Assembly (NCBI RefSeq): GCF_016745395.1
Contig: NZ_JAERVJ010000001.1
Location: 682,001-746,000 of the forward strand
DNA: 64,000 nt
Direction of reading: 5' to 3'
From: Methylocystis sp. Sn-Cys
GTDB lineage: Bacteria; Pseudomonadota; Alphaproteobacteria; Rhizobiales; Beijerinckiaceae
The notes under the pieces were generated by a model. That model was not told where the DNA came from. It saw nothing but the letters and a program-made list of their open reading frames with translations, and ran no database searches. Every line of letters begins with the position of its first letter. Within the stretch, counting starts at the first letter, position 1. Both the position numbers and the translations under genes were made by a program. Positions 42,069 to 45,655 of this stretch are shown here, in pieces.

Positions 42069-43157
42069 CTATTCCTTGTCGTCGCCGTCGCCGGCATCCA
42101 GAATTTTCTCGGCGATAAGGCCCGAGTTTTCGCGGATCGCTTGCTCGATGCGCTGTGCGGCTTCCGGGTTCTGGCGCAAAAAGCTTTTGGCGTTTTCGCG
42201 GCCCTGGCCGAGGCGTTGGCTGTCGTAGGAGAACCAGGCGCCTGATTTGTCGACAACGCCGGCCTTCACGCCAAGATCGATGAGTTCGCCGAGCTTCGAG
42301 ACGCCTTCGCCATACATGATGTCGAATTCCACCTGTTTGAAAGGCGGGGCGACCTTGTTCTTGACCACCTTGACGCGCGTCTGGTTGCCGATGGTTTCGT
42401 CGCGCTCCTTGATCGCGCCGATGCGGCGAATGTCGAGACGCACCGACGCGTAGAATTTCAGCGCATTGCCGCCCGTCGTCGTTTCCGGCGAGCCATACAT
42501 GACGCCGATCTTCATGCGGATCTGGTTGATGAAGATGACGAGCGTGTTGGAGCGGGCAATGGAGGCGGTCAGCTTGCGCAGCGCCTGGCTCATCAGGCGG
42601 GCCTGGAGACCGGGCTGCACCTCGCCCATTTCGCCTTCGATCTCGGCGCGCGGCGTCAAGGCGGCGACCGAATCGATGACGAGCACGTCGACCGCGCCGG
42701 AGCGCACCAGCGTGTCGGTGATCTCCAGCGCCTGCTCGCCCGTGTCGGGCTGAGAAATCAGCAGCTCGTCGAGATTGACGCCGAGCTTGCGGGCGTAGAC
42801 CGGATCGAGCGCATGTTCGGCGTCGACGAAAGCGCAGACGCCGCCGAGCTTCTGCGCCTCGGCGATGACATGCAGGGTCAGCGTGGTTTTGCCCGAGGAT
42901 TCGGGGCCGTAAATTTCGACGATGCGACCGCGTGGCAGGCCGCCGACGCCAAGCGCGATGTCGAGGCCCAGCGAGCCGGTGGAAATGGTCTCGATCTCGA
43001 CGGCTTTCTGATTTTTGCCGAGCCGCATGATCGAGCCCTTGCCGAAGGCGCGCTCGATCTGCGACAGGGCGGCGTCCAACGCCTTGGTCTTGTCCACGGA
43101 CGATCCTTCCACGAGGCGGAGATTAGCTTGGCTCACGGCTGAAATCCCTTCTGGCAT
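42069..43157 (-). CDS. recA: Recombinase RecA
   Basis: Strand-exchange ATPase and LexA co-protease. 362 residues from ATG 43157; family start '[20 protein letters not shown]', Walker A '[13 protein letters not shown]', L2 '[20 protein letters not shown]' and the acidic C-terminus ('DAGDGDDKE') are present. A frame extending to 43202 has no family likeness. Monocistronic, with its own terminator. A transposon is inserted 77 bases upstream of the start codon, in what was its LexA operator. Confidence 0.99.
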
Positions 43158-43192
43158 GATTTCAATGGCGGGGGCAACAACAACTCTGACGC

Positions 43193-43221
43193 AATTGTGC
43201 ATGATTTGTTCTCGAAGCCAA
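43193..43221 (-). promoter_or_regulatory. recA: Candidate recA core promoter
   Basis: On the minus strand: TTGGCT (43216-43221), 17 bases, ACAATT (43193-43198). The -35 is good, the -10 weak. It lies wholly between the transposon and recA, so it would survive the insertion. Confidence 0.4.
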
Positions 43222-43236
43222 GTTCATTTTTTGTCC
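43222..43236. promoter_or_regulatory. LexA box of recA, broken by the transposon
   Basis: Present sequence is GTTC-ATTTTTT-GTCC; the last two bases belong to the transposon end. Joining 43222-43234 to 45541-45542 restores GTTC-ATTTTTT-GTTC, an exact match to the alphaproteobacterial LexA consensus GTTC-N7-GTTC. The box would have lain directly upstream of the candidate -35. Confidence 0.75.
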
Positions 43237-43275
43237 CAATTATGCACTTTGCATAACAGACGAAAGGAACTAGGT

Positions 43276-44343
43276 TTGATACACTCGGTCAACTGGCGAG
43301 ACCTCGAATTTGAAATGATCGCTTTGCCGTTCCTTTCAGAACGCGGGGTGCCACAGAATCATTGGGTTAGGGTTGGCATGCCGCAGATTCCGCCTTCCGT
43401 CACAAATAGCGTGTTCTTTCTCTACGACAGCGTTGAATCCGCAAAATCGGGGGAAAGACCGGGCGGGACGGGCTTCATAGTTGCTTATTCGGACAGCCCG
43501 CTATTCCCGGCCGAGACGGCGTTTTATGGCGTGACGAATTGGCATGTCGCCTGTGAAGGAGGGTGCTCCGTTATAAGGCTAAATACAAAAGATGGCGGCA
43601 CAGACATTATTGAAATATTCCCAGAACAGTGGGAGTTCATCCCTGGTCGATATGACTTAGCCGCCGTCCGATTGCAATTTAGTAGCATTCACGACGTTTC
43701 CGCCGTAAACATAGGAGATTTCGTTATCCGGCAGAGCACTCAGACGCGCATTAAGTCAGATGTTGGAATTGGTGAAGACGTATTCATGATCGGATTATTT
43801 ATAGATCATTTCGGAAAAGGCGTGAATATACCAAGTGCACGCTTTGGTCACATCAGTATGCTACCAGATGAGCGGGCCTTAATTAAGCAGCCGACCACAT
43901 ATGACGGCGTAAGCTACTTGATTGACATCCACTCAAGGGCTGGATTTTCAGGGTCTCCCGTTTACGTCTACAGAACATTTGGTTCCGACCTGAAGCAAAA
44001 ATTCGGGGAAAGCATCAATGGTCTGGACTTACAAATCGATTCGATTCAGGTTGACGATCTTGGGCGTCCGGGCGGACGAACCAGTGGCCGCGTGCGTGGT
44101 TCCAGGGGAACAATTAACTACAACGGCATGCTAAAGTTATTGGGGATTTATTGGGGAAGGTTCCCTGAGCAGGCGGGCGCCCCCGGTAGCGAACTCAGTG
44201 GCACAGGATGCGTTATTCCCGCGTGGCAGATATTAGAGTTGCTCAACATCCCCGCTCTGGCGGCAGAGCGCGAGAGGAAAACCGCCGCTTTCAATGCCGC
44301 CTTACAGAAGGTGCGGGACGGATCAACCCCAGTCACGAAGTAA
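43276..44343 (+). CDS. Trypsin-like serine peptidase, transposon passenger
   Basis: 355 residues from TTG at 43276, which has AAGGA seven bases upstream (next in-frame ATG: 43315, no site). The chymotrypsin-fold triad is readable: His90 in 'GVTNWHVAC', Asp127 in 'RYDLAAVRL', Ser225 in 'RAGFSGSPVYVY'; 'GGTGFIVAY' is the usual first-barrel strand. No signal peptide, so it is probably cytoplasmic. The C-terminal ~130 residues include a Gly/Arg-rich loop and 'GTGCVIPAWQILELLNIP'. It lies inside the transposon on the strand opposite the transposase; AT-rich codon use differs from the host. Target unknown. Confidence 0.8.
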   Translation: MIHSVNWRDLEFEMIALPFLSERGVPQNHWVRVGMPQIPPSVTNSVFFLYDSVESAKSGERPGGTGFIVAYSDSPLFPAETAFYGVTNWHVACEGGCSVIRLNTKDGGTDIIEIFPEQWEFIPGRYDLAAVRLQFSSIHDVSAVNIGDFVIRQSTQTRIKSDVGIGEDVFMIGLFIDHFGKGVNIPSARFGHISMLPDERALIKQPTTYDGVSYLIDIHSRAGFSGSPVYVYRTFGSDLKQKFGESINGLDLQIDSIQVDDLGRPGGRTSGRVRGSRGTINYNGMLKLLGIYWGRFPEQAGAPGSELSGTGCVIPAWQILELLNIPALAAERERKTAAFNAALQKVRDGSTPVTK

Positions 44344-44351
44344 GCGACGCG

Positions 44352-44513
44352 ATGACCGACGAACAGTTATCTGATGAGGAAATCGTAAAGCGGCGCGACG
44401 GTGCCATTCGCCGCGCGCTCAATACACCAGCGCCCCCGAAGGTGAAAAAGCCGCCCGCGAGGAAGGCCCCTAAAAAGCCTCAAGCCAAGACAAAAGGCGG
44501 CGAAGCTTCTTAA
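44352..44513 (+). CDS. Small basic protein, second transposon passenger
   Basis: 53 residues: an acidic start (MTDEQLSDEEIVKRRDGAIR) and a Lys/Pro-rich tail ('KPPARKAPKKPQAK'), likely disordered and nucleic-acid binding. It begins eight bases after the peptidase stop, so the two are probably co-transcribed. It ends 32 bases from the convergent transposase stop. No known domain. Confidence 0.6.
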   Translation: MTDEQLSDEEIVKRRDGAIRRALNTPAPPKVKKPPARKAPKKPQAKTKGGEAS

Positions 44514-44545
44514 GAGTGCGTTTCGCCCGCTCGCGTTGAACTAGG

Positions 44546-45469
44546 TCAACGATATTTGAGGCGCTTGCCTTCGCCGCCGCGAATGGCGCGATGCGTGCGC
44601 TCCGTATCGTCAACGCCAAGGCCGGAACGATTCGAATAACGGAAATCGAATTCGTTCAGATACGCCTGCAAATGCTGCTCGCCGCAGTGGTGATACACCC
44701 CGCGCATGCCGCGCTTGAAAATCCCGAAGTAGCCTTCAACGGTGTTCGTGGTCGTCTCCCCGCGAACATACTCGCCGCTGCCGTGGTTGACCGACTCATG
44801 CGCGGCGAACGCCTTTCCGGGCTTCTTGTAATGCTGGGCCTCATCGGTGTTCAGCGTCGAGTCGAGAACGACGTGAGCGCCGAGAACCTTCTTGATCGTC
44901 AAGATCGTCAGATCGTCTACCTTGATTGAGACAGAGCGCCCGCCACGCTCAACCATCGTCAAAACCTTCTGCTTGGTCGCGGCGCCGCGATGGCCCTGCC
45001 AGCCTTTGCCGGTCACAAAGCGCTGGCCAGGCTTGCTGATGAAAGTTTCATCGACCTCAACGGTCTTGCCCTCACCGCCAAGCGGCTCAGGGTCGCGATC
45101 GGCCATCGCCTCGCGGATGCGATGCGCCATAAACCAAGCCGTGCGGTAGGAGCCCAAGCCGAGATTGCGCATAAGCTGATGAGCTGAAATGCCCTTCTTG
45201 CTGGACGCCATCAGGTGGAAGCCGAGCGCCCACTTGTTCAACGGGACGTGGGACGACTCCATGACGGTCCCAACCGTCACGGTGAAATGCTCTCGGCACG
45301 AGCGGCAAACGAACAGGCCGGGGCGATGAGACTTGCCTTCAAGGCGCGTCGCCTGATCCACAACGCCGCAGTGCGGGCAAACCGGTTTGCCGTCTGGCCA
45401 GCGGATGCGCTCGAAATGCGCGCGGGCAGCAGCTTCGTCAGTGAAAATGGGATCGGTCAGATTCGTCAT
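44546..45469 (-). CDS. IS1595-family (ISXO2-like) transposase
   Basis: 307 residues. N-terminal zinc ribbon with Cys31/34 ('CPHC') and Cys55/58 ('CRSC'), then a DDE-type core: Asp140 in 'VEVDETFI', Asp203 in 'VVLDSTLNTDEAQHY', and Asn242/Glu245 in 'TTNTVEGYFGIFKRGMRGVYHH' (quoted in part: 'NTVEGYFGIFKRG'). The D-D-N/E arrangement and the CxxC pairs are typical of IS1595. GGAG precedes ATG 45469. Reading frame intact, so the element may still move. Confidence 0.95.
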   Translation of the reverse strand: MTNLTDPIFTDEAAARAHFERIRWPDGKPVCPHCGVVDQATRLEGKSHRPGLFVCRSCREHFTVTVGTVMESSHVPLNKWALGFHLMASSKKGISAHQLMRNLGLGSYRTAWFMAHRIREAMADRDPEPLGGEGKTVEVDETFISKPGQRFVTGKGWQGHRGAATKQKVLTMVERGGRSVSIKVDDLTILTIKKVLGAHVVLDSTLNTDEAQHYKKPGKAFAAHESVNHGSGEYVRGETTTNTVEGYFGIFKRGMRGVYHHCGEQHLQAYLNEFDFRYSNRSGLGVDDTERTHRAIRGGEGKRLKYR

Positions 45470-45655
45470 TGTTTAGCTCCAATGACAAGAACTCTACCGG
45501 AACAACGGTGTTATGTAAAGTGCATAATACCCTTTTTTGTTCGCGTGAATATAAAAGCCGAGAAGGCGACTGCTACCGTGACCATGGGAGCCTCGCCGCC
45601 ATCGGGCGCAGGTCGCGATATTGACGCGGGCCTTGCCGCTTCCCATCTGCGGGCC

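Follow-up and report, generated by a model that had tools for sequence, protein, structure and literature searches.

Recurrent insertions of one clade of IS1595-type transposons in the distal LexA operator of recA

An IS1595-type element beside recA

We analysed a 64,000-nucleotide stretch of the Methylocystis sp. Sn-Cys genome, referred to here as the window, in which a 2298-bp transposon of the IS1595 family (43235..45532) adjoins recA. The recA gene occupies 42069..43136 on the minus strand (TIGR02012, 580 bits); its listed open reading frame extends to 43202, and conservation points to the GTG at 43136 as the probable start, the GTGAGCCA start being present in the genus recA promoters printed. 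The transposon was delimited by its ends, its target duplication and an empty site in a genome of the same species. Two copies of the 8-bp duplication TTTTTTGT flank it, one on the recA side (43227..43234), of which the empty site holds a single copy, and one on the far side (45533..45540). Its ends are imperfect inverted repeats of about 24 bp, CCCAATTATGCACTTTGCATAACA facing recA (43235..43258, plus strand) and GGGTATTATGCACTTTACATAACA next to the transposase (45509..45532, minus strand).

The transposase (307 amino acids; 44546..45469, minus strand) matches the zinc-ribbon family PF12760 and the DDE family PF12762, both above the Pfam cut-offs, and the NCBIfam model of IS1595 transposases, NF033547 (204 bits, cut-off 75). 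Residues D140, D209 and E245 are invariant across 28 aligned transposases and would be its catalytic acidic residues. When solved structures were compared with this transposase by sequence, the single match was a zinc-finger protein (E 0.0027). A candidate transposase promoter, TTTACA-N17-TAGAGT, was read by eye from the sequence at 45491..45519 on the minus strand. The element also carries a cargo frame (43282..44343, plus strand; the stretch as translated, with an uncertain start codon) that resembles trypsin-like peptidases: PF13365 (Trypsin_2) matches it with E 2e-5 and 25.8 bits, slightly below the cut-off of 27.6, and the PADLOC candidate PDC-S45 with E 3e-7, while NCBIfam gave no match. 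A 53-residue frame at 44352-44513 had no family match, so that the family matches within the element are confined to the IS1595 transposase and the peptidase-like cargo.

An earlier note on this DNA had placed the transposon exactly inside the recA LexA operator, and this was borne out: the element splits the distal of two boxes. Removing it together with one copy of the duplication joins the flanks into an exact GTTC-N7-GTTC, GTTCATTTTTTGTTC, as the note had stated, and the comparison it proposed with related genomes lacking the element gave the same answer. In the same-species genome G043 the box at this place is uninterrupted (GAACAAAAAATGAAC on the recA strand), and the recA strand there reads CACGCGAACAAAAAATGAACTTGG, exactly the window flanks as joined. 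In the 100 bp closest to the site, the two genomes are 98% and 99% identical on the two sides; when 600 bp are compared, the figures are 97.2% and 97.7%. Therefore, the insertion was precise and the interrupted sequence was an exact box; the insertion is probably recent. In the sister species G002 the box is exact as well, and the rest of its distal flank is unrelated. In its present form, GTTCATTTTTTGTCC (43222..43236, plus strand), the distal box takes its last two bases from the transposon and reads GTTC-N7-GTCC, one base off, which agrees with the earlier description.

Excerpts of two papers give GTTC-N7-GTTC as the LexA motif of alphaproteobacteria (PMC8565304, PMC12700426). The host genome contains lexA (G000:C20) and 65 matches to the motif, compared with 85 for a reversed control; in the absence of genome-wide enrichment, a lone match without a position says little. 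We examined ten of the 65, namely lexA's own box and nine others, mostly AT-rich. Seven precede lexA, ssb, comM/yifB, imuA-like, dnaE2, PA0069-type radical SAM and dcm genes, the ImuA and dnaE2 matches being below curated cut-offs and the dnaE2 frame being cut off by the end of the sequence examined; for the other three, no adjoining gene was recognised as SOS-type. At the empty recA site of G043 and G002, the motif likewise stands before an SOS gene and is thus a predicted LexA operator.

The second, proximal LexA-type box of recA, GTGCATGATTTGTTC (43197..43211, plus strand), has the form GAAC-N7-G(C/T)AC, lies between the candidate -35 and -10 and is untouched. This form occurs in all 32 genus recA promoters, the window included (sampled from 39 genomes, the other seven having no usable recA start), and in seven of ten order-level recA promoters, one of those ten loci being incomplete. 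The exact distal box is found in 23 of the 32, always 25 bp from the proximal one. It is absent from the window, from genome G016, which also has a transposon there, and from seven others, in which no such transposon end is visible in 190 bp; its loss therefore seems to be tolerated. In L020, one of these seven, the distal spacer is 8 bp instead of 7. Genus recA promoters without a distal box and without such an end in 190 bp include L009, L015, L018, L019 and L099. Separately, genome G007 has two recA genes (C1:85825 and C1:2108946), each encoding a protein about 90% identical to the window RecA.

Given the intact proximal box and the occurrence of an exact distal box in just 23 of 32 promoters, the suggestion that recA has been uncoupled from SOS control is weak and found no support here, although repression of recA is possibly weaker in the window strain. 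The candidate recA promoter at 43193-43221, which had been described as intact, is so, yet a consensus scan of 43100-43340 gave it no score. The same scan found no outward promoter in the transposon end that could drive recA, a result to be read with its failure to detect the candidate recA promoter in mind.

Recurrence at recA and a LexA-type box in the transposase promoter

The earlier note missed the recurrence of the insertion: diverged relatives occupy the same base elsewhere, in other species and also in other genera. In G016 (Methylocystis sp. L43), a diverged element, L114, sits at the same base and in the same orientation as that of the window, between duplications ACAATAAA and ACAAAAAA, with a transposase 87% identical to the window's and disrupted near its end. 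By RecA identity to the window, G043 (99%) and G002 (98%) are nearer than G016 (94-95%), yet both are empty at this site, so that the window and G016 elements look like separate insertions.

Six full elements show the exact in-box register at both ends, and all six adjoin recA: those of the window, L114, L235, L237, L238 and L139. The hosts of L235, L237 and L238 belong to other genera of the window host's family, and that of L139 is an unclassified alphaproteobacterium. In L139 the orientation of the transposase is reversed, and even so the GGGT end is distal and the CCC end faces recA; L237 is a 5-kb composite containing a second, inverted copy. Two further elements bring the full junctions at recA to eight, L241, which keeps the in-box register next to a degenerate half-site, and L140 from a Rhodobacteraceae assembly, whose register is shifted by about one base; we read the frame beside L140, at the contig edge, as the putative start of recA. 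Additionally, L236, L135 and L137 have an in-box left junction in sequence stretches that do not include recA, L135 and L137 having been labelled manually.

All nine in-box rows fall within a single 14-row clade of a 141-row tree (SH-aLRT 99). The remaining rows of this clade are L133, the inner copy of L237, L142, L241 and L140. L133, with a transposase that shares 90% identity with that of the window, has a target site without a LexA box and counts against a fixed target, and the 24 bp of flank available for L142 are too few to judge its target. Outside the tree sample, L246 has a box 17 bp away; at recA and outside the clade lie L259 (with a gap of 4 bp to the box), L164 and L204.

The junctions differ in what remains of the operator. 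In L236, L237 and L238 the element end GGAAC recreates a LexA box at the distal junction (GAACAAAAAAGGAAC). On the recA side, the six exact in-box elements have GGAC (GCAC in L237) where GAAC stood, and the recA-facing box is consequently not rebuilt. We considered the cargo as a common target selector and rejected this, since the in-box elements carry differing cargos; six of ten cargo proteins from the window and other elements had no Pfam family match. The cargos of L139, L185, L251 and L268, for example, otherwise differ and end in similar proline/lysine-rich tails, which perhaps derive from a common DNA stretch beside the transposase end.

A further LexA-type box, on which the earlier note was silent, is present in the element's own transposase promoter, where GTTCCGGTAGAGTTC (45489..45503, minus strand) covers the predicted -10. 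The recA group has this GTTC-N7-GTTC about 30-45 bp inside the element end. It is exact in eight of 143 elements (window, L133, L114, L135, L235, L238, L241 and L246) and in none of the 135 other elements with an end; it is one base off in L236, L237 and L137, absent from L139 and L142, and represented in L140 just by a one-mismatch GAAC form located elsewhere. Across the 11 elements with their own box, conservation reaches 10-11 of 11 in each of the eight half-site columns, compared with 4-11 of 11 in the spacer columns. This is partly built in, because these 11 were chosen from the group, with L139, L140 and L142 left out, and because the first box that had no more than one mismatch was taken. 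The transposase of the recA clade is thus probably under SOS control.

Operators beside related insertions

Four sets of elements were compared: set 1, drawn by similarity to the window transposase (143 elements with a left end, 107 of them full), an order-level set (31, of which 26 full), a viral-contig set (46, of which 25 full) and a set from another class of the phylum (18, of which 10 full). Left-junction duplicates and matches with no more than about 130-150 aligned residues were excluded, as were elements without a recognisable end (10, plus 3 order-level and 7 viral), and elements without a second end did not enter the box counts. The 31 records that a plasmid search returned, at 50-52% identity, were left out of the comparison.

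With the empty target as reference, an exact GTTC-N7-GTTC is present no more than 60 bp away for 26 of 107 full elements of set 1, 2 of 26 in the order-level set, 1 of 25 on viral contigs and 0 of 10 from the other class. Pooled over the first three sets, this amounts to 29 of 158, against a background in 120-bp windows of the same loci of 29/8438 (random) and 17/2301 (intergenic-like), or 0.3-0.7%. Binomial P values overstate this evidence, because the rows share ancestry. When dyads were scanned for with no motif set beforehand, AACA-N6-GAAC ranked first (22 of 133 full elements versus 0 of 1537). Two observations count against homing to LexA boxes: the targets of 129 of the 158 full elements have no LexA box, and the enrichment is far lower in the order-level and viral sets than in set 1.

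Beyond the recA group, an exact box stands no more than 60 bp from 21 of 148 full insertions, and for 13 of these 21 it is exactly 4 bp outside the duplication, in a single orientation. No pair of these 13 box-side flanks exceeds 60% ungapped identity, and the three order-level and viral matches are all at this gap. In the tree, the gap-4 rows are dispersed, with eight label changes for 11 rows compared with a shuffled mean of 10.8, which indicates that insertion at gap 4 is not a single inherited trait. Genes near the boxed insertions include recA, S24-peptidase genes and three kinds that are also preceded by boxes in the window genome, namely comM/yifB-like, radical SAM and dcm genes. A GTTC at gap 15 (18 sides) was dismissed as a separate signal: on 12 sides it was the far half of a gap-4 box, on four it belonged to the proximal recA box and on two to inverted motifs.

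Other kinds of target recur outside the recA clade. L252, L260 (genome G243) and L267 are inserted in GTTTCACGTGAAAC, which we take to be parS, in one register, two of them with both ends and L267 with its left end only; no other copy of this 14-mer occurs in the 1.33 Mb of set-1 loci. They suggest that operator homing may be a wider habit of this IS1595-type family. The second signal of the dyad scan was a TAGG-N8-CCTA palindrome, present in 20 of 133 full elements versus 0 of 1537. At targets of this type, such as those of L191, L193, L202 and L317, the outer bases mirror the element ends (CCTA...TAGG). L118, L168, L386 and L459 are inserted in the loops of CCTCCCC...GGGGAGG-type hairpins. 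L310 and L313 have an inverted GTTCACGGTTTGAAC motif 4 bp away, a gap identical to that of the LexA group. On two viral contigs, L433 and L476 occupy similar sites 4 bp from GAACAAAGAGAGAAC and GGACAAAACGCGAAC, the latter (L476) carrying a GGAC half-site, as does the window recA.

Explanations, significance and known systems

We consider it likely that the window element belongs to a clade of IS1595 transposons that homes site-specifically to the distal LexA operator of recA, with a transposase that is probably SOS-controlled. The register, the recurrence, the empty site and the LexA-type box in the transposase promoter are all read directly from sequence, and recurrence at one kind of site suggests that the group homes to SOS control sites rather than landing there by chance. 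Members of the clade would insert into a target GA-ACAAAAAA-xGAAC and duplicate the 8 bp ACAAAAAA in a fixed orientation, with the GGGT/GGAAC end distal and the CCC end (once GCC) towards recA, whereas scattered relatives in the family would land at a distance of exactly 4 bp from a LexA box, on its outside. The operator would be recognised by the transposase or by LexA, rather than the elements just being kept there by selection. The recA site may serve as a safe harbour, a nearly universal locus at which the promoter and the proximal box are spared, and recA would stay at least partly SOS-controlled through that box. The transposase, repressed by LexA, would be made during the SOS response.

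One form of this explanation, that LexA protein itself guides the transposase, is possible but less likely than not. The signal matches LexA's own, with both half-sites, the 7-bp spacer and several SOS-type genes, and parS, which is bound by another protein, is also struck in one register. However, bound LexA would presumably clash with an in-box insertion, and relatives from the other class have no LexA-type enrichment: neither CTG-N10-CAG, the LexA motif used for that class, nor the alphaproteobacterial box lies beside any of the 10 full elements. A bolder version, equally tentative, is that the group reads the SOS circuit twice, homing to operators via LexA complexes (in relatives, via ParB complexes) and making its transposase only upon LexA destruction. 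If so, DNA damage would both free the operator and trigger the jump into it.

Alternatively, insertion could be random and the elements retained at SOS promoters, where cargo or transposase acquire control by DNA damage. The LexA-type box in the group's transposase promoter lends this some weight, in that coupling to SOS may be selected; retention predicts no fixed base register or orientation, however, and 13 elements at gap 4 and six full in-box elements show both, which leaves this reading improbable. Less probable again is a plain preference for A-tracts, with LexA boxes struck merely for containing one. AT-rich duplications are frequent, and the commonest duplication, in 5 of 133 full elements, is exactly ACAAAAAA. 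Nevertheless, the duplications vary among the gap-4 elements, where the far GTTC is present on all 12 of 12 sides with a near GTTC and one orientation alone is seen, and spacers of 3-6 or 8-12 bp in place of 7 are barely enriched (0-5 of 158), so that we regard this account as very unlikely. Finally, a single chance insertion that produced the uncoupling of recA from SOS suggested in the earlier note, with which the damaged distal box of the window strain agrees, is hardly credible in view of the diverged relatives at the same base across species and genera and the intact proximal box in 32 of 32 genus promoters.

Site-specific transposons, of which there are few, serve as a source of programmable insertion tools. 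If homing of the clade to the recA operator is correct, locating a 15-bp operator at a fixed distance is within the reach of a small element with a single recognised transposase; this would be a simple new targeting principle, and transposition would be tied to the DNA-damage response. In searches of open-licence papers by title and abstract opening, we found no report of IS1595 elements or other transposons homing to LexA operators.

Several known systems share part of this behaviour. An 8-bp target duplication is typical of the IS1595 family, and the window element shares these marks with that family (ISXO2-like transposases): a transposase with zinc-ribbon and DDE domains that matches the NCBIfam model, the 8-bp duplication, inverted ends and a cargo. 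The recurrent insertion in LexA operators and the LexA-type box in the transposase promoter set the present group apart, and the literature searched yielded neither for the family. Excerpts of one paper describe integron integrases as LexA-controlled (PMC3108266). There too, the recombinase gene of a mobile element is under LexA, as we propose for the window transposase; unlike the window element, integrons combine a site-specific recombinase with gene cassettes. To our knowledge, integron integrases are not known to insert into LexA boxes. Tn7 inserts in an orientation-specific manner at attTn7, a conserved chromosomal site at the end of glmS, and does little harm there. Its oriented insertion at one conserved site beside an important gene resembles that of our clade, in which the eight recA junctions have a fixed target site and orientation, apart from the shift in L140 and with the same-clade L133 lying elsewhere. 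The Tn7-like core consists of TnsABC with a TnsD- or TnsE-type selector; these are absent among the family matches of the window element, which has no recognised target-selector protein, and its site is the operator before recA instead of the end of glmS. The 'res hunters' of the Tn402/Tn5053 type home to protein-bound DNA, as our clade may do; they differ in their transposases, in their 5-bp duplications and in their target, a resolution site.
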